Positions 50,233 through 64,000 of a stretch of DNA of 64,000 bases are shown piece by piece; within the stretch, counting starts at the first letter, position 1, and each line of letters opens with the position of its first letter. Both the position numbers and the translations under genes were made by a program. The notes under the pieces are model-generated. The model was not told where the DNA came from, made no database searches, and was given only the letters and a program-made list of their open reading frames with translations. Source of the stretch: an uncultured Hoeflea sp. (GTDB taxonomy: Bacteria; Pseudomonadota; Alphaproteobacteria; Rhizobiales; Rhizobiaceae); assembly GCF_947501405.1 (NCBI RefSeq), contig NZ_CANMVK010000001.1, positions 1,674,001 to 1,738,000 on the forward strand, read 5' to 3'.

Positions 50233-50247
50233 GTTCAACCTTTGTTC
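50233..50247 (+). promoter_or_regulatory. LexA (SOS) box upstream of dinB
   Basis: GTTC-AACCTTT-GTTC is a perfect alphaproteobacterial SOS box (GTTC-N7-GTTC). It ends 17 bp before the dinB ATG at 50265. LexA bound here would repress dinB until DNA damage. The divergent GNAT gene may also be affected. Confidence 0.88.
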
Positions 50248-50264: not shown

Positions 50265-51575
50265 ATGACCCAAGCGCCGCCCCCAGATCCGGTTTCCGGG
50301 TTTTGCCGTGATTGCCTGACTCCTGCCGGATCCGGGTGCCGCTGTGCAAGCTGCGGCAGCCCACGCATTATCCGTCATGCCGAAATCGATGAGCTCACGC
50401 TGGCGCATGTGGATTGCGACGCGTTCTACGCCACCGTGGAAAAGCGCGACAATCCGGATCTGGCCGACAAGCCGGTGATCATTGGCGGCGGCAAACGCGG
50501 CGTGGTCTCCACATGTTGCTATATCGCGCGCGTTCACGGAGTGCGCTCGGCGATGCCGATGTTCAAGGCGCTTGACGCCTGCCCGGATGCGGTGGTGATC
50601 AAGCCCGACATGGAGAAATATGTGCGAGTCGGCCGCCAGGTGCGGCAAATGATGGAGGAGCTCACACCACTGGTGCAGCCTATTTCCATCGACGAGGCTT
50701 TTCTGGATCTCGCCGGCACCGAACGGCTGCACAAGGACACACCGGCGCGGACGCTGGCGCGGTTTGCAGCCCGGGTGGAGGCCGAAATCGGCATTACCGT
50801 TTCGGTGGGGCTTTCCTATTGCAAGTTCCTGGCCAAGGTCGCCTCTGATCTCGACAAGCCGCGCGGCTTTTCGGTGATCGGCAAGCACGAGGCGCTGGAT
50901 TTCCTGCGGCCGCGACCGGTGACGCTGATCTGGGGCGTGGGCAAAGCCTTTGCCGCCTCGCTCGAGCGCGACGGGATCCGCACCATCGGCCAATTGCAGA
51001 CCATGGATCTTGAGGCGCTGATGCGCCGCTATGGGGTGATGGGCAAACGTCTCCATCATCTGGCGCGCGGCGAGGATGACCGCACGGTTCACCCCAATGA
51101 AGGCGCCAAGAGCGTGTCGACCGAAACCACGTTCAACACCGATCTTTCAAAGGCAGAGGAGCTTGTTCCGATTCTCAGGCGGTTGTCGGAAAAGGTTTCG
51201 GCGCGGCTCAAGGCATCGGACATTGCCGGGCAAACAGTGGTGCTCAAGCTCAAGACCGCCGAGTTCAAGAGCCGTACCCGCAATTTCAAACTGGAGGACC
51301 CGACGGTGCTGGCCGACCGGATCTTCCGCACCGGGCTGCATCTGCTGGACAAGGAGCTTGGCGGAGACCGGTTCCGGCTGATCGGCATCGGGGTCAGCGA
51401 CCTCACGGACGCCTCGCGCGCCGATCCGCCCGATCTGGTTGATCCTGCCGCCGCCCGGCGCGCTGTGGCGGAAAGCGCAATTGACGAGGTGCGCCAGAAA
51501 TTCGGACGCGACATCGTCGAGACCGGATACACCTTCGGCACCTCCCGCAAGATGAAGCAGGCGGATCAGGATTGA
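50265..51575 (+). CDS. dinB: DNA polymerase IV (DinB) with N-terminal zinc finger
   Basis: Y-family translesion polymerase, 436 residues (E. coli 351). The extra N-terminus holds [20 protein letters not shown], six cysteines in CxxC/CxC-like spacing, a likely zinc module. The catalytic palm has [17 protein letters not shown] (Asp 1), [20 protein letters not shown] and [14 protein letters not shown] (Asp-Glu 2). The little finger follows with TIGQLQTMD and [10 protein letters not shown]; there is no clear QLxLF clamp motif at the very end, but [12 protein letters not shown] closes the protein. A perfect LexA box precedes it. Weak ribosome site. Confidence 0.95.
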
Positions 51576-53444: not shown

Positions 53445-56400
53445 CTAAACCAGCTCCACATCCAGCACCCCGGGAGCCGCCTTCAGCGCAGAGGCGATCT
53501 GCGGGGAAATCTTGTAGCGGTCCGCCAGCGTGACTTCGATTTCGCGGCGTCCATCATCCTTGATCATGATGAACGACACCTGGCCGTCGCCACGGGTCTT
53601 GAGATGAGTGGTCAGCGACCCGAGCGGCTTGGCATCACGCAGATAGACCCTTAGCGCCGACTGGCCGCGGGCGGCGCGGTCCTCCAGCGAATCGGCGGTC
53701 TGAATGCGCAGGCCAATGCCTTCGGGTCGCTCTTCGGCGTTGACGGTGATGACAATCGATTTGCCCGGCTCGAGCAACTCGCGATATTGCGCCAGACTCT
53801 CAGAAAACAGCACCGCCTCATATTGGCCAGAGCTGTCGGAAAAAGCCACGATGCCCATCTTGTTTCCGGTGCGGGTCTTGCGTTCCTGCTTTGAGGTGAC
53901 GGTGCCCGCGAGCCGGCCCGCCGTTGCGCCGGCCTTGACGGCAATGGAAAAATCCGCCCAGGTTTGCACCCGCATTCTGTTGAGCAAATCCGAATAGGAA
54001 TCAAGCGGATGCGCGGAGAGATAAAAACCCAGAGCCTGGAATTCGCGATGCAGCTTGTCGGCCGGCAGCCAGGGCGTGGCCTGTGGCAGGTGGATGGCCT
54101 CAACCTCGTTGGCGCCGCCCGAGCCGAACATGTCGCTCTGGCCGCTGATGCGGTTTTCCTGGGCCCGCTGGGCATAGCCCAGTATCCGGTCTAAGCCCGC
54201 AACCAGGGTGGCCCGGTCATGGCCGAAACAATCGAACGCGCCGGCGGTGATCAGGCTTTCGATCACCCGCCGGTTGACCTGACGCGGATCGATCCTGAGG
54301 CAGAAATCTTCAAGCGACGCAAAGGGATTGTCGCTGCGCACCTCGACGATGTGCTCGACCGCCGCCTCGCCCACGCCCTTGATGGCGGCGAGCGCGTAAT
54401 AGATGCGGTTGTCCCCGGTTTCGAAATGCCTGAAGCTGGTCTGTACCGAAGGCGGCGCAACCTCGATGCCCAGGCGTTTGGCGTCCTGGCGAAAATCATT
54501 GAGCTTGTCGGTGTTCGACATGTCGAGCGTCATCGAGGCCGCCAGAAATTCGACCGGATAATGCGCCTTGAGATAGGCCGTCTGGTAGGACACGATTCCG
54601 TAGGCGGCGGCGTGCGACTTGTTGAAGCCGTAATTGGCGAATTTGGCCAGCAGATCGAAAATCATGTCGGCCTGCGGTTTGGAGACATCGCGCTCGACCG
54701 CGCCCTCGACAAAGCGGGCACGCTGCTTGTCCATCTCCTCCTTGATCTTTTTACCCATGGCGCGGCGCAACAGATCGGCCTCGCCTAGCGAATAGCCGGC
54801 CAGCACCTGGGCGATCTGCATCACCTGTTCCTGATAGACGATCACGCCTTGCGTCTCGGCCAGAAGATTGTCGATCTTGGGATGGATCGACGCCAGTTCC
54901 TCCTCGCCATGCTTGCGGGCATTGTAAACCGGGATATTCTCCATCGGACCGGGACGGTAGAGCGCCACCAGCGCGATAATGTCCTCAATCCGGTCGGGCC
55001 GCATTCCGATCAGCGCCTTGCGCATGCCCGCTGATTCCACCTGAAACACACCAACGGTTTCGCCGCGCGACAGCATTTCATAGGTGGGTTTGTCATCGAG
55101 CGGCAGGGCTTCGAGGTCGATGCTGACACCGCGCTTAGCCACGAAATCCACGGCTGTCTTAAGTACGGTCAGTGTTTTCAGACCCAGGAAGTCAAACTTG
55201 ACCAGACCCGCCTGCTCCACCCATTTCATATTGAACTGGGTAACCGGCATGTCCGAGCGCGGATCGCGATACATCGGCACCAGCTGCGACAATGGCCGGT
55301 CACCAATGACGATGCCGGCGGCATGGGTGGAGGCGTGGCGGTAGAGCCCTTCGAGTTTCTGTGCAATGTCGAGCAGCCGGCCGACGGCGGGCTCCTTCTC
55401 GGTTTCTTCCGCAAAGCGTGGCTCTTCCTCGATCGCTTTGTGGAGCGGCGTCGGATTGGCCGGATTGTTGGGCACCAGCTTGCAGATCCGGTCAACCAGA
55501 CCGTAGGGCATCTCAAGCACCCGGCCGACATCACGCAATGCAGCGCGGGCCTGCAGACTTCCGAAGGTGATAATCTGGGCTACCTGGTCACGGCCATATT
55601 TGTTCACAACGTAGCGGATCACCTCGTCGCGCCGATCCTGGCAGAAATCGATATCGAAGTCGGGCATCGAGATACGGGCAGGATTGAGAAAGCGCTCGAA
55701 CAGCAGCGAAAAACGCAAAGGATCGACATCGGTGATGGTCAACGCATAGGCCACCAGAGAACCTGCGCCGGAGCCGCGGCCCGGCCCGACCGGAATGCCC
55801 TGGTCCTTGGCCCATTTGATGAAGTCGGCCACGATGAGAAAGTAGCCGGGGAACTTCATTCCCTCGATAATGCCAAGCTCGGTTTCGAGGCGTTCGCGGT
55901 AATCATCGGCGCTAAAGCCTTCGGCCAGGCCAATGCGGCCCAAGCGGATCTCCAACCCCTCCTCCGACTGACGCCTAAGTTCGGCGGCTTCCGCGGCCAG
56001 GGCCGCCTGTGGATCATCCTCGCCGCCGCCGGTAAAGCGTGGCAGGATCGGCGCGCGCGTCTCAACAATCGCAGCACAGCGCCGGGCGATCTCGATTGTG
56101 CTGTCGAGCGCTTCGGGAAGATCTGAAAACAGCGCCGTCATCTCGGCGCGCGACTTCAAGCAGTGATCGACGCTCAGCCGAAGCCGGCGATCATCCGACA
56201 TCACCGCGTTGCAGGCCACAGCCATCAGGGCGTCATGGGCCTCGAAATCGTCGGGCGTGGGAAAGAATGCCTCATTGGAAGCCACCAGCGGAACCGCACT
56301 TTGATAAGCAAGCGCGATCATCCTGCTTTCATGCGCCCGGTCATAGCCCTCCTGGCGCTGCAGCTCGAGATAGAGCCGGTCGCCAAACACCGATTTGAGC

Positions 56401-57107
56401 CGTGACAGCCGAGCCTCCGCACGGTCGGAACGTCCCTCGATCATTGCCTGGTCGACCGGGCCGCCACGCCCGCCGGTGAGGGCGATCAGCCCTTCCGCTC
56501 CCTCTTCAAGCCAGGAGATGCAGATATGCGGCCGCTCGACGGAGTCGCCGTCCAGATAGGCACGGCTGACCAGCGCCACCAATCGTTCATAGCCGGTTCT
56601 GGTGGCGGCCAGCAGCACGATTGAGGGCGACTTTTGCAAATGGTCGCGATGCGAACGGCGGTCACCCTCCTGGCCATCTTCCATGTCAATATCGAGCTGA
56701 CAGCCGATCAGCGGCTGAATGCCAGCCTCCATGGCCTTGACCGAAAACTCCAGCGCGCCGAACAGATTGTTTGTGTCGGTGATGGCGAGCGCCGGCTGCT
56801 CATCGGCCTCGGCGCGCTTGATCAGCGTCTTGATCGGAAGAGCGCCTTCCAGCAGTGAATAGGCCGAATGCACCCGCAAATGCACAAAACCAGGCCAATT
56901 GCCGCCGCTCTGGCCATGGCCCGGCCTGTCGCCATTCTGCGATGCACCGGCTGGACCGCCCGGGTCAACGTCTTTCCGAGCGCCGCCGTGGTCACCGCTC
57001 CGGGCGCCGTCCGATGCACTCGCGGGCTTGTCTGTGCCGTCTGCTCCGGACGCAACACCCGCGGCTAGATTTGCAAGCATCTTCGCCGATTTGCTTTCGC
57101 GCGCCAT
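53445..57107 (-). CDS. dnaE: DNA polymerase III alpha subunit
   Basis: Main replicative polymerase, 1220 residues. The first 70 residues are a low-complexity Gly/Asp/Ala-rich extension; the PHP domain starts at [21 protein letters not shown]. The catalytic palm holds [23 protein letters not shown] and [17 protein letters not shown] (the catalytic PDFDIDF). Later segments are the finger and clamp-contact parts ([25 protein letters not shown]), the HhH region and an OB domain near the C-terminus. It is the DnaE1 class by length and motif. A tiny SOS gene lies upstream on the same strand; readthrough into dnaE is possible. Confidence 0.97.
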   Translation of the reverse strand: [1220 protein letters not shown]

Positions 57108-57337
57108 GCGGCCCCTCTGTCAATTGATGCAAGGCCCCGGCACCATCGACACGGCGCGAAGACTCAAAGCTCAATTGTGAGGACCCGGACCCGAAAGTCC
57201 AGTGCGCGCGTTCGCGAAATCAGAGGTTCACACAGCCAAGCCCCGCGCCGGCATCAGCGAAGCTGACAGCGCATGCTCAGGCCACAGTATCAGACCGGAC
57301 CAATGGCGCTCTGGCGGCGCATAAAACCTATCACCGA

Positions 57338-57353
57338 GGCCTTTCAAAAGGCC
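57338..57353 (-). other. Hairpin at the end of the 28-codon SOS ORF
   Basis: GGCCTT-TCAA-AAGGCC, with arms extended by another A/T pair, is a small perfect dyad that straddles the TGA of the tiny ORF. On the minus strand it is not followed by an immediate T run, so termination is unproven; it could limit readthrough into dnaE or stabilise the short mRNA. Confidence 0.35.
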
Positions 57354-57430
57354 ATGGCGATAACGGCAAAACTCGCAACGAACAAAGACATGGAGACGAA
57401 AGCAGCGAGATCGCGGGCAAATGCAGTCAT
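57344..57430 (-). CDS. 28-residue SOS-induced membrane protein (SidA-like architecture)
   Basis: ATG 57430 to TGA 57344, 28 codons. The product starts MTAFARD and continues as one hydrophobic stretch of about 20 residues (LAAFVSMSLFVASFAVIAMA), a single predicted inner-membrane helix with a short polar N-terminus. GGGAG lies six bases before the ATG. Upstream is a near-consensus promoter with a perfect LexA box in its spacer (57463-57491). Tiny SOS-induced membrane proteins are known (SidA of Caulobacter, 29 residues, inhibits division). I have no sequence match; the analogy is in size, topology and regulation. Too short for standard gene callers. dnaE begins 236 bp downstream. Confidence 0.7.
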   Translation of the reverse strand: MTAFARDLAAFVSMSLFVASFAVIAMAF

Positions 57431-57462
57431 GATCAACTCCCATTTATTCCTGATGTGTTTGC

Positions 57463-57491
57463 ATTATGTTCTATTTTTGTTCTGCTGTCAA
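57463..57491 (-). promoter_or_regulatory. SOS promoter: sigma-70 boxes with LexA box in the spacer
   Basis: On the minus strand TTGACA (57491-57486) and CATAAT (57468-57463) are exactly 17 bp apart. The spacer contains GAAC-AAAAATA-GAAC (57482-57468), a perfect GTTC-N7-GTTC LexA box read on the plus strand. A LexA dimer here would cover the RNA polymerase site. The predicted start of transcription is near 57456, giving a leader of about 25 bases with GGGAG before the 28-codon ORF. This is the best regulatory site in the window. Confidence 0.9.
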
Positions 57492-57880
57492 GCCACGGCA
57501 ACACATCCGGCTGGGTGCGGAAGCGGGAGCGAGAGAACGTGCCTGGCGGTATCGAGTTGGTTCGCAACGAGCCTCTGCACCGTGCTGGCCGGCACAGAGG
57601 TCCACAGGGCGCGCGAGACGCCCCGCCCTCGCCCCAGCGCTGTACCTCGCTCTCAACGCAGCGCCTCACCCAAGGCGGCGCGACGATGATTTGCCCAATC
57701 CGGCGCATGCCACACAGCAATAAGTTGGCTTCAGGTAGAGCTCCCATCAACCAAGCGGAAAGGCGTGGCAGCCCAGCTACCGGTATGAAGACGGTCAGGC
57801 GTCTTTGAAAGACGGAGTTTCATGATCGCCAACCGGGCAGTTGTAGACCCGGATATCGCTGATTGAGCCAATGGAGGACG
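57492..57880. other. Intergenic region between the SOS promoter and hupB terminator
   Basis: About 390 bp without a believable gene. Several short frames exist on both strands but lack ribosome sites and protein-like composition. No tRNA was found. Confidence 0.4.
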
Positions 57881-57945: not shown

Positions 57946-58218
57946 TTAGTTGCAGGCGTCCTTGAGGCCCTTGCCTGCCGAGAACTTGGGCACGTTGCGT
58001 GCAGGGATATCGACTTCCTTGCCGGTCTGGGGGTTGCGGCCCTTGGAGGCTTCGCGACGCGACACGGTGAAATTGCCGAACCCGATCAGGCGCACATCGC
58101 CGCCGTTTTTCAGTTCGCCGGTGATCGTCTCAAACACCGCCTCGACTGCCGACGTTGCGTCACCCTTGCTAATGCCCGATTTCTCGGCCACTGCGGCCAC
58201 GAGTTCATTCTTGTTCAT
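57946..58218 (-). CDS. hupB: HU family nucleoid protein
   Basis: 90 residues; standard HU. It starts MNKNELVAAVAEKSGISKGDATSAVEA. The DNA-binding arm is GFGNFTVSRREASKGRNPQTGKEVDIPA. The C-terminus is KFSAGKGLKDACN. It bends and coats DNA; single chain, probably homodimeric. AAGGGATGGACA precedes the start. lon lies upstream on the same strand (the rhizobial and general bacterial lon-hupB order), and an own terminator follows. Confidence 0.97.
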   Translation of the reverse strand: MNKNELVAAVAEKSGISKGDATSAVEAVFETITGELKNGGDVRLIGFGNFTVSRREASKGRNPQTGKEVDIPARNVPKFSAGKGLKDACN

Positions 58219-58423: not shown

Positions 58424-60856
<2,433 letters not shown>

Positions 60857-60980
60857 GTCATTTCCTTTCCTGGCCTTTTCGGCCCTGCCCTTCAAGGCCT
60901 GTTGGCAACGCACGCGGCGGCCCCGGTTTTCCAGCGGCCGGCCCTGGCGCCCTTGACGAGGGATAGCGCCCTCGTCCGTG

Positions 60981-61010
60981 TAAGTGGAGAACCGGCTTAC
61001 CGGTTTCAAG
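60981..61010 (-). promoter_or_regulatory. Candidate heat-shock (RpoH) promoter of lon
   Basis: The minus strand reads CTTGAA (61010-61005), 17 bp, then CCACTTA (60987-60981). The -35 fits RpoH well; the -10 fits only partly. It is about 125 bp upstream of the lon ATG. The 349-bp gap between lon and the next gene holds no other feature I can name. Confidence 0.35.
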
Positions 61011-61205: not shown

Positions 61206-64000
61206 CTAGCCCTCCGAGCGTCGGCGGATCAGTCCCGACACGGCCAGGATCAGCATGGAGGTAACAATCCAGCCCAGTGCCGTGTAGACCGATTTCGCCA
61301 TCTGCCAATACCAGAATTTCGGGTCCGGCCGGCAGCGCATTTCCTGTTTGAGATCGATCAGCGGCACGAAGGTGTCAACCGCGTAAAGCGGCACATTGAT
61401 CTGATCGCCGCAGGGTTTGGCGCGGCCATAGGCCGGTTCACCGGTCATCTCGATTTCCGTGACACCGGGAATGGCACCGCGCGCGTCGGCGCGCAATTCG
61501 ACTGGCATCTCGTCGTAAATCAAGACCCCGCTGGATTGCCAGATTTGCGTCACCACGCTTCCCGCAAGGATGAGCAAAACAAACACCACGGTGGGCTGCA
61601 CCGGCGAGAGCCCGTAATAGAACGGATGACGATAAAACCAGTCCGACCAGACAGGATAATAAAATCCGAGCATCGCCGCGGCCGCGAATGCGAGTGCGGA
61701 AAACACGAGTGAACCGAAAATCAGGTATGTCAGCACACCCGCAACCGCTGATATGGCGACCAGCAAGGTGATCCATTTCTTGTTGTCGGGGAAAACAGAA
61801 AACTTCTTTTTCCAGCGCTGCGTGTTGAATCCGGACTCAATGCTCATTCGGTCGTGAATGATCTCGGCGGCTTCGCGAGCCCGTCCCGAGCGCCGGAACA
61901 GTTGGGCAATATGCTCGTAAGGCTGAACGTTGAATTCGTTCTCGTCCTTGGGATTGTCATCAAGATATTGCAGCTTGAGCCAGTCCCGTCGGGCTTCCCA
62001 CTGATTGTGCTGTCGTGCCCCCGATCCCGCCGCAACGTCGAAATCCGCGCTGACGCCGAGTGACTCCGGGTCCTCATTGTGCAGCGCATACCTGAAATTG
62101 TCCAAATTGAGCTGGAACAGCTGTCGTCCCGCCGAATTGGCCTGCCGGCGCGATCGACGCCAGGCCTGACCGCCGGCATCGTTGAGATAGGAGCATTCCA
62201 CAAAGCCGAGATTGACGCGGGGCAATCCCTCGGGCTCTTGTCTGGCGGTGTCATCGGAAGCGGGCTGTTGATCGGTATTGACGGACCCGGACAGGCCAAC
62301 TCGATACTGCTTGAACCTCTCATCAAGGTCATCGGTCGGTTCGCTCCACGGCGCCGGCATGGGCATGATTTCGGGTGCTCTATCCCGCCCCACGACCCTG
62401 CGCCGCCCGGTTCCCTGCTCGAAAATGATCGGGGCACTGTCGGCGAATTCAAACAGCGGTGTGTCAGCCGTCATCTCCACCTGACCGCCGGCGGCGATGC
62501 GGAAATCCGCGACGAACACCGCATTGCCGAAAATCACGGTCACCCCGGAGGCCACGAATACGCTCTCGCCGTCGGCGCCAACCTCGCGGGTCACCTCGAA
62601 CCGCAATCCAGCCTTGGCTTGTGACCGGGATTTGCCGTTCGATGGTTCACCGGGCTTGAGCGAACGGTCCAGTTCTCCGGCGTCTTGGGGCAGACGGAAC
62701 CAGCCATTATCGCCCCAGACCATGTGGCAGAAAAACCGCAGGTATTCGGCGGCGGTCTCCGTGGTCAGGTCGAGCTTTGGTCCGAGCCGCTGATTGAGTG
62801 CGTGAATTGGCGGCGACGTTCCATCCAGCTTGATGAACTCGTCTTCGCCATTCCAGAGATATGATCGACGCCACGCCTCGTCGTCCGCGCTTTGGGCTTC
62901 AAGCAACGCCCAACCGGGGTAAAAACCAAGCTCCCTGACCCCGGTCACGAATTCGCCGTTCTCGCCACTGCGGTTGGTCGCCTGCTTGGCTGGCTTGCGG
63001 ATCGCATCGACAAAACGCTCGGCCTCGCCCTTGTCGAGCGCTGTCCAATCGCCAGGCACAATATCGATCGGATCACGTGGATTCTTGAACAGTTTCCGCC
63101 ACAGCGCAGCCGAAACTTCCTTGATCGTTTTCGGATTGTAGCGGCGATACCCATCCTTGAAACTGATGGGGCACGCGCCTTCCAGGGCAAATTTCGGATC
63201 GTCGTCCAGCATCTCGACCATGCCAGTTTTCATGATCTTGAAATCAGCGACAAAAACATTCCATGCATAGATGACCGGCACGTTCCTCGCCAGAAAGGCG
63301 CCCTGGTCATCCTGATCCGGGGTCACCACAATCTGGGCGCCAGTGGCGGCGAGCGCCTTCGCCTCACCAAGATGGCTGCCCGAGTACCTCAAAAGCCCGT
63401 TTTCATCGAAGGGAATTCGGAACCAGCCCTCCTCACCCCAGACCACGCTGCAAAAAAAACGCAGATAATCGGCGGCGGTGGTGGCGTCGATTTTCAGCCG
63501 GTCGCCAAGCCGCTCGTTAAACGCGTGGATTGGCGGCGACGTGCCGTCAAGGTGAACCGGCTGGCTTCGTTCATCCCAGAGATAACTCGTATGCGCACCA
63601 TCGGGTGTAACCGCCTCGATCATTGTATAGCCGGGATAAAACGGCAGATTCAGGGCCTTGACCGCCTTGAATGCCGCTACAATGGCCTCCGGTTCAGGTT
63701 CGTTTCGCGTCCATTGATAGTCAAGGTCGCTGAATTCGAGCGCGGCGGCTATGCGCGTTCCCATGAAATTGAACAGGGGTGGCGGACGGTGGCTTTCTGC
63801 TTTTTGAACATCGGATCCGGTTTGACCTTCGGTGTGATCCAGAGCATCGGCCACAACGCCCTTGACCTGGCACTCGCCATCGATGCGCATGTTGGACGCA
63901 TCCAGCCTCTCATAGATCCGCAGACCCTGGAGCTTGGCATTGCCACCCACCCGGCAATTGCGCAGTTCGATCACTTTCGCGTGCGACCGGCCGACGAGCA
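61206..64000 (-). CDS. Large membrane protein with a tandemly duplicated domain (N-terminus beyond window)
   Basis: At least 930 residues; the frame stays open past 64000, so the GTG at 63974 is not a likely start. Numbering from there: 1-70 has the beta-helix-like pattern ELRNCRVGGNAKLQG; about 112-275 and 351-520 are two copies of one module, with FYPG, YLW, LDGTSPPIHA, AADYLRFFCSVVWGEEGWFR (copy 2: AAEYLRFFCHMVWGDNGWFR) and a closing VFVADF strand. Then come an acidic linker and a helical section (NFRYALHNED to REAAEIIHDR). The last 200 residues have about four membrane helices and the end INVPLYAVDTFVPLIDL. The C-terminal part resembles the ends of bacterial pentapeptide or beta-helix membrane proteins as I recall them. 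Function unknown. Confidence 0.8.
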   Translation of the reverse strand, partial: LVGRSHAKVIELRNCRVGGNAKLQGLRIYERLDASNMRIDGECQVKGVVADALDHTEGQTGSDVQKAESHRPPPLFNFMGTRIAAALEFSDLDYQWTRNEPEPEAIVAAFKAVKALNLPFYPGYTMIEAVTPDGAHTSYLWDERSQPVHLDGTSPPIHAFNERLGDRLKIDATTAADYLRFFCSVVWGEEGWFRIPFDENGLLRYSGSHLGEAKALAATGAQIVVTPDQDDQGAFLARNVPVIYAWNVFVADFKIMKTGMVEMLDDDPKFALEGACPISFKDGYRRYNPKTIKEVSAALWRKLFKNPRDPIDIVPGDWTALDKGEAERFVDAIRKPAKQATNRSGENGEFVTGVRELGFYPGWALLEAQSADDEAWRRSYLWNGEDEFIKLDGTSPPIHALNQRLGPKLDLTTETAAEYLRFFCHMVWGDNGWFRLPQDAGELDRSLKPGEPSNGKSRSQAKAGLRFEVTREVGADGESVFVASGVTVIFGNAVFVADFRIAAGGQVEMTADTPLFEFADSAPIIFEQGTGRRRVVGRDRAPEIMPMPAPWSEPTDDLDERFKQYRVGLSGSVNTDQQPASDDTARQEPEGLPRVNLGFVECSYLNDAGGQAWRRSRRQANSAGRQLFQLNLDNFRYALHNEDPESLGVSADFDVAAGSGARQHNQWEARRDWLKLQYLDDNPKDENEFNVQPYEHIAQLFRRSGRAREAAEIIHDRMSIESGFNTQRWKKKFSVFPDNKKWITLLVAISAVAGVLTYLIFGSLVFSALAFAAAAMLGFYYPVWSDWFYRHPFYYGLSPVQPTVVFVLLILAGSVVTQIWQSSGVLIYDEMPVELRADARGAIPGVTEIEMTGEPAYGRAKPCGDQINVPLYAVDTFVPLIDLKQEMRCRPDPKFWYWQMAKSVYTALGWIVTSMLILAVSGLIRRRSEG

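Follow-up and report, generated by a model that had tools for sequence, protein, structure and literature searches.

The window analysed here, 64,000 nucleotides (64 kb) from an uncultured Hoeflea sp., holds a 28-codon open reading frame directly upstream of dnaE. We put the probability at about 75% that this micro-ORF is the Rhizobiales ortholog of Caulobacter sidA, that it heads a sidA-dnaE unit repressed by LexA, and that it encodes a helix which arrests division after DNA damage.

A micro-ORF behind a LexA-type operator

The micro-ORF lies on the minus strand (57344..57430), where an ATG at 57430 opens 28 codons that end in a TGA at 57346-57344; its product is MTAFARDLAAFVSMSLFVASFAVIAMAF. 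Upstream on the same strand stand a TTGACA -35 element (57486..57491), read in the sequence and returned by a promoter scan, a CATAAT -10 element (57463..57468), which follows after a 17-base spacer and was returned by the same scan, and, read by eye, a GGGAG ribosome-binding site (57437..57441). TTGACA-N17-CATAAT scores 11/12 matches and is the sole sigma-70-like site that the scan found in 57000-57700, where shuffles average 0.1. The spacer contains a LexA-type operator, GAACAAAAATAGAAC (57468..57482, minus), with the form GAAC-N7-GAAC (equivalently GTTC-N7-GTTC), whose last C is the first base of the -10 element. A third half-site, AAAC, follows with an 11-bp period (GAACATAATGCAAAC, 57457..57471, minus, one mismatch). 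The original prediction had described TTGACA-N17-CATAAT, the box in its spacer, GGGAG, the 28-codon frame and dnaE downstream, and the letters agree with it base for base.

We do not accept the box by itself as proof, with three exact matches in the 64-kb window against 2.2 expected; the case for LexA comes from its place in the promoter and its conservation, not from the count alone. A second exact match (50233-50247) lies 17 bases 5' of a DNA polymerase IV frame (50265-51575, plus strand, NF002751), 7 kb away, which is likely a second SOS gene. The third (56585-56599) falls within the dnaE coding region and is taken as chance.

Conservation of the promoter was read from a named scan of genome contigs, in which the best 80 of 152 relatives, all named Rhizobiaceae loci, were used; because these loci are related, their counts are not independent. 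Among the 80 are Sinorhizobium meliloti, S. medicae, Rhizobium leguminosarum, Agrobacterium, Shinella and Ensifer. A box stands upstream of the micro-ORF in 79/80 (background, 43/6,123 windows), and dnaE follows on the same strand in 80/80. TTGAC starts 9 bases 5' of the box in 76 of the 79 box-bearing loci, and a half-site at +22 (at most one mismatch from GAAC, mostly AAAC) is present in 73 of them; the same half-site test at adjacent offsets finds 0-9/79. Promoter and operator are thus almost a fixed block in Rhizobiaceae, and the LexA box in the promoter that membership of the SidA family requires is present in the window and in nearly all of the relatives read. Farther upstream the window carries the HU gene (57949-58218) and Lon (58427-61009), a pair found at only 14 of the 80 named loci. 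Beyond them, a 922-codon open frame (61206-63974, minus) has no Pfam match at E 0.001 and may be a non-gene or a wrong frame.

The encoded protein has 28 residues and one hydrophobic segment (17-residue hydropathy maximum 2.34), in keeping with SidA in both size and hydrophobicity. No Pfam or NCBIfam model matches it. A protein search of 41 genomes matched 21 at E up to 10, and 15 of 17 relatives from the same genus carry the micro-ORF, the two without a match being genomes that are 75-77% complete. At all 16 Hoeflea loci (L001-L016, the window genome included) the exact box is present and dnaE lies downstream.

Patterns of change across these 16 loci mark the frame as a gene under purifying selection. 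Over 120 pairs, pN is 0.044 and pS 0.469, with a dN/dS of 0.061; the 27 variable columns fall at codon positions 1, 2 and 3 in the numbers 8, 2 and 23; and the other two frames of the same DNA give pN/pS of 2.2 and 12.0. Across the 77 named loci with 28-residue ORFs (from the best 80 of 152), pN/pS is 0.32. The low dN/dS and the third-position change indicate that selection acts on the reading frame and not on the DNA alone. The original prediction had named loss of the frame at loci that keep the box as an outcome that would count against it; with a dN/dS of 0.06, and box and ORF found together in nearly all relatives, it came through. Conservation along the protein also follows a helical period (100 degrees; permutation p 0.011 with both groups pooled, 0.043 and 0.125 with each taken alone), with a conserved face formed by positions 6, 10, 13, 17 and 20 (R6, A10, S13, F17 and position 20).

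Less came of the hairpin that had been noted around the TGA. A 6-bp stem does fold there, but the stability of the 81-nucleotide stretch exceeds that of its shuffles only slightly (z -1.7, 12/200 as good), a terminator scan of 57000-57700 found none, and the DNA after the stop varies among Hoeflea species. We therefore reject it as a terminator and give it no role.

In S. meliloti the micro-ORF before dnaE reads MADFVRDLAAFASMSLFIVSISVIALGL (L219, L428), and the Ak57 record has the order proline-tRNA ligase, two lipoprotein-type ABC transporter genes, the ORF and dnaE. The gene had been called overlooked: one S. meliloti record (n = 1, with a gene table incomplete by its own description) shows no feature over the ORF, although a small ORF at this place had been detected earlier by Ribo-seq. 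A phage search with a Rhizobium homologue as query gave no match, nor did a plasmid search with the window DNA as query; a plasmid search with the Rhizobium homologue gave five matches, all to large rhizobial replicons. Two records that bear the micro-ORF are filed as plasmids: NZ_CP069303.1 (L427, 4.6 Mb), which shows no features, and CP090106.1 (L428, 3.7 Mb), labelled pSymB, in which dnaE is annotated beside the micro-ORF. From their size and content, both may be misfiled chromosomes.

Probable kinship with Caulobacter SidA

The family extends across the Rhizobiales. A 16-row model matched 218 of 397 genomes of the order and 121 of 151 of the family at E up to 1. Some hits at that threshold are due to chance, and the loci were therefore read individually. 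In one group (L023-L072) an exact box lies within 150 bases at 43/50 loci and dnaE downstream in the fetched stretch at 46/50; in another (L084-L143) the counts are 54/60 and 43/60, against a background of 11/2,234 windows with a box. These loci were returned by the search or picked from its matches and are not a random sample, and the locus groups overlap, four of the loci (L023, L026, L051, L052) coming from the same genomes as L019, L021, L018 and L017. At least 12 sampled families of the order (f1, f6, f13, f14, f16, f20, f27, f34, f40, f41, f44, f48) contribute loci that have a box, dnaE or both. Five matches (L020, L022, L069, L129, L130) have neither an exact box nor dnaE downstream and were set aside; L020 and L022 look like chance.

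Beyond the order, sequence searching is weak. With a 38-row Rhizobiales model, 13 of 387 genomes of the class gave a match at E≤0.05 (the f102 genomes of the sample were unlisted), and among the model's class matches outside the order only one locus (L081) was seen with both LexA box and dnaE. The best of these matches (L074, E 8e-4) has neither and was rejected. We therefore searched by position. A dnaE search matched 370 genomes of the class. We read 120 of the upstream regions, a non-random set picked by rank, family or guess, and 22 of them combine a box with a short hydrophobic ORF (13/30, 6/60 and 3/30; four in the first set, the window among them, belong to the order of the window, and the second has one doubtful member, L304).

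One of the ORFs recovered at class level, in family f102, has exactly 29 residues. Used as a query, it matched 50 of 60 f102 genomes at E≤10; dnaE adjoins at 30/30 fetched f102 loci and an exact box is present at 19/30, a set that counts two loci with no readable ORF (L365, L371). In genus g515, 60 of 61 genomes matched at E≤10, and 16 of the 27 loci read have the exact box, three of 30 (FCWM variants) having escaped the motif and been left out of the 27. Degenerate operators, which many Caulobacteraceae have, escape an exact-box rule.

We take genus g515 to be Caulobacter from its DnaN, its gene order and a PDB source. Of 19 DnaN proteins compared (18 from g515), two, from G990 and G1027, match PDB chain 5wce with full identity over 371 residues, and we take 5wce to be from Caulobacter. 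In G990, a 29-residue ORF stands directly before dnaE, and its divergent neighbour is an inosine-uridine nucleoside hydrolase (PF01156). In Caulobacter, sidA is CCNA_02004 (PMC11034885), CCNA_02005 is an inosine-uridine preferring nucleoside hydrolase (PMC3667746), and sidA is among the genes whose annotated start was corrected (PMC4117421). SidA itself is a 29-residue inner-membrane protein that binds FtsW (PMC4211646), and both it and its SOS control are known (PMC4211646, PMC12700426; review PMC9578287). From its length, its promoter and its neighbours, whose order these locus tags match, the g515 ORF is probably SidA.

The two groups can also be compared directly. A single profile-profile comparison aligns residues 1-21 with residues 1-21 without gaps (probability 88%, E 3e-6). 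Against the Caulobacteraceae model the window protein scores 11.3 bits, and in two runs 0 and 2 of its own 300 shuffles did as well; the top of 11,400 pooled shuffles is higher, at 14.2 bits. With the same model, 22 of 38 Rhizobiales rows exceed the 99th shuffle percentile and 16 fall below it, a modest similarity, and with the reverse (Rhizobiales) model 18 of 22 Caulobacteraceae sequences exceed their shuffle percentile. When 529 short hydrophobic ORFs from the fetched loci, family members among them, were scored, the top rows listed (≥8.5 bits) resembled the family by eye, L129 being doubtful.

Twelve further representatives gave mixed scores. With the Rhizobiales model, eight outscore all 300 of their own shuffles (G058 and G102 are from the same order), and the scores of the remaining four are reached by 12 (G649), 3 (G584), 66 (G714) and 4 (G859) of 300. 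With the Caulobacteraceae model, four outscore all 300 shuffles; a single shuffle reaches a fifth, and 28-233 shuffles reach each of the other seven. What unites the members from other orders is thus chiefly their position and promoter, and less their sequence.

The original prediction had offered SidA as an analogy. We now prefer orthology because SidA shares the chromosomal place, a similar length and detectable similarity: the Hoeflea micro-ORF is most likely a sidA ortholog, judged mainly from position, promoter and length, with weaker support from sequence.

Common descent would leave room for a changed partner. The two groups have the N-terminal half in common, with R6, D/E7, A10 and F17, but the FVWM core of Caulobacteraceae has become FVAS or FIAS in most Rhizobiales rows. 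The window protein has FVAS at positions 17-20, where FVWM is our reading of the Caulobacteraceae alignment and not a published criterion. With this core changed, the contact with the target may differ. The loss of FVWM and the restriction of the profile alignment to residues 1-21 would both fit a protein that descends from the same ancestor as SidA and has a different partner in Rhizobiales, perhaps another envelope enzyme; set against the shared N-terminal half, we regard this as unlikely, yet worth keeping in mind.

Relation to dnaE

In the window the micro-ORF has the position that characterizes SidA, directly upstream of dnaE (DNA polymerase III alpha; 53445..57107, minus; NF004226, 1501 bits), which is the probable second gene of the unit. 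The suggestion that dnaE is thereby partly damage-inducible is plausible. No second promoter was found between the two genes in the scan of 57000-57700, nor a terminator, and in S. meliloti the location of the small ORF sORF25 in the dnaE1 5'-UTR implies a transcript through both. In the named Rhizobiaceae loci (best 80 of 152), the gap to the most upstream dnaE start ranges from 15 to 545 bases at the 64/80 that could be scored, and a simple promoter pattern occurs in it at 1/80. Terminator-like hairpins occur there at 11/80, against 3.7 expected in shuffles, and some loci may therefore separate the ORF from dnaE. Basal dnaE transcripts could begin where those of the ORF do, or at a promoter that these patterns miss.

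The close linkage invites another reading, in which the ORF is a leader peptide or uORF whose translation tunes dnaE expression and whose product has no function in trans. It would account for an ORF placed just before dnaE on the same strand at all 80 named loci (best 80 of 152), and it is one of the ways in which the authors of the S. meliloti Ribo-seq study read sORF25, which lies in the dnaE1 5'-UTR (PMC10117765). It would also require obligatory linkage to dnaE, but at 18 of 110 order-level loci the ORF and an exact box persist with dnaE absent from the fetched downstream stretch. In the four of these given in detail (L049, L104, L137, L138), genes other than dnaE follow, and LolC/LolD-like ORFs, named by eye, are still upstream in L104 and L138, where S. 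meliloti Ak57 has its two ABC transporter genes. The survival of the ORF away from dnaE argues against a pure leader peptide, as do the strong selection on its amino acids and the periodicity of its helix face, and the Caulobacter gene in the same place works as a protein (PMC4211646, PMC12700426). On balance we hold a leader function to be improbable. One of the four loci, L137, has the micro-ORF and exact box between alcohol-dehydrogenase-like and carB-like ORFs (named by eye). Alternatively, the product could, like E. coli TisB or DinQ, be an SOS-induced peptide that acts directly on the membrane and has no target in the divisome. TisB too is a lone hydrophobic helix of about this size under LexA control, but the micro-protein shares its locus with sidA, and we think this reading very improbable.

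For the sidA ortholog we prefer, the following sequence of events can be proposed. LexA bound to the GAAC repeats within the promoter spacer would block RNA polymerase, as the placement of the site suggests. RecA-stimulated self-cleavage of LexA is an established pathway, and after DNA damage it would release this promoter. The 28-residue product would insert into the inner membrane as one helix and, by analogy with Caulobacter, arrest late cell division. Its conserved face (R6, A10, S13, F17 and position 20) probably docks on a membrane protein of the divisome, for example FtsW, a target suggested by Caulobacter SidA and the conservation pattern. The transcript probably continues into dnaE, in which case damage would raise the replicative polymerase too.

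A candidate SOS division inhibitor for rhizobia

SidA of Caulobacter crescentus resembles the Hoeflea protein in length (29 versus 28 residues), in LexA control and in its place directly upstream of dnaE in g515. The two differ in the core, FVWM there and FVAS here, and in the operator, which is cleaner in Rhizobiaceae, with a consensus -35 and a third half-site. DidA of Caulobacter, YneA, SosA and SulA are damage-induced division inhibitors that we set beside it by description only; DidA has 71 residues and is SOS-independent (PMC4211646).

Parts of this locus have been described before. In S. meliloti, sORF25 is translated, lies in the dnaE1 5'-UTR and has been treated as a possible uORF (PMC10117765); it is likely the family member that we find before dnaE. 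Among Alphaproteobacteria, dnaE is listed with the reported or predicted SOS-regulated genes; its regulation by LexA is reported from Caulobacter and has been recovered in comparative genomic work (PMC3323433). That account credits the control to dnaE, and no intervening micro-ORF is mentioned in its section 8. Our literature search, which lay outside the original SidA and 2004 LexA-regulon papers, found no link of sORF25 or of LexA control of dnaE to SidA, and nothing relevant on dnaE, LexA, SOS or SidA in PMC2245857 or PMC11031950. Two points were absent from the papers searched: the likely identity of the small ORF with SidA, and the recurrence of sidA-dnaE in families of the Rhizobiales and in some others among the Alphaproteobacteria.

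The finding joins two literatures, that of Caulobacter SidA and that of the translated small ORF before S. meliloti dnaE1. The LexA regulation ascribed to dnaE may be there mainly for the micro-protein, or for both. We know of no SOS division inhibitor established in rhizobia, and the model organism S. meliloti now has a precise candidate, with a promoter and a start codon. More tentatively, and at somewhat less than even odds, sidA-dnaE may be an old alphaproteobacterial checkpoint operon, in which one LexA-repressed transcript encodes both a division-arrest micro-protein and the replicative polymerase. If so, DNA damage would halt septation and raise replication capacity simultaneously, and the micro-protein would fill the place of the missing SOS division inhibitor in rhizobia and their kin, its ORF having escaped notice because gene callers pass over it.
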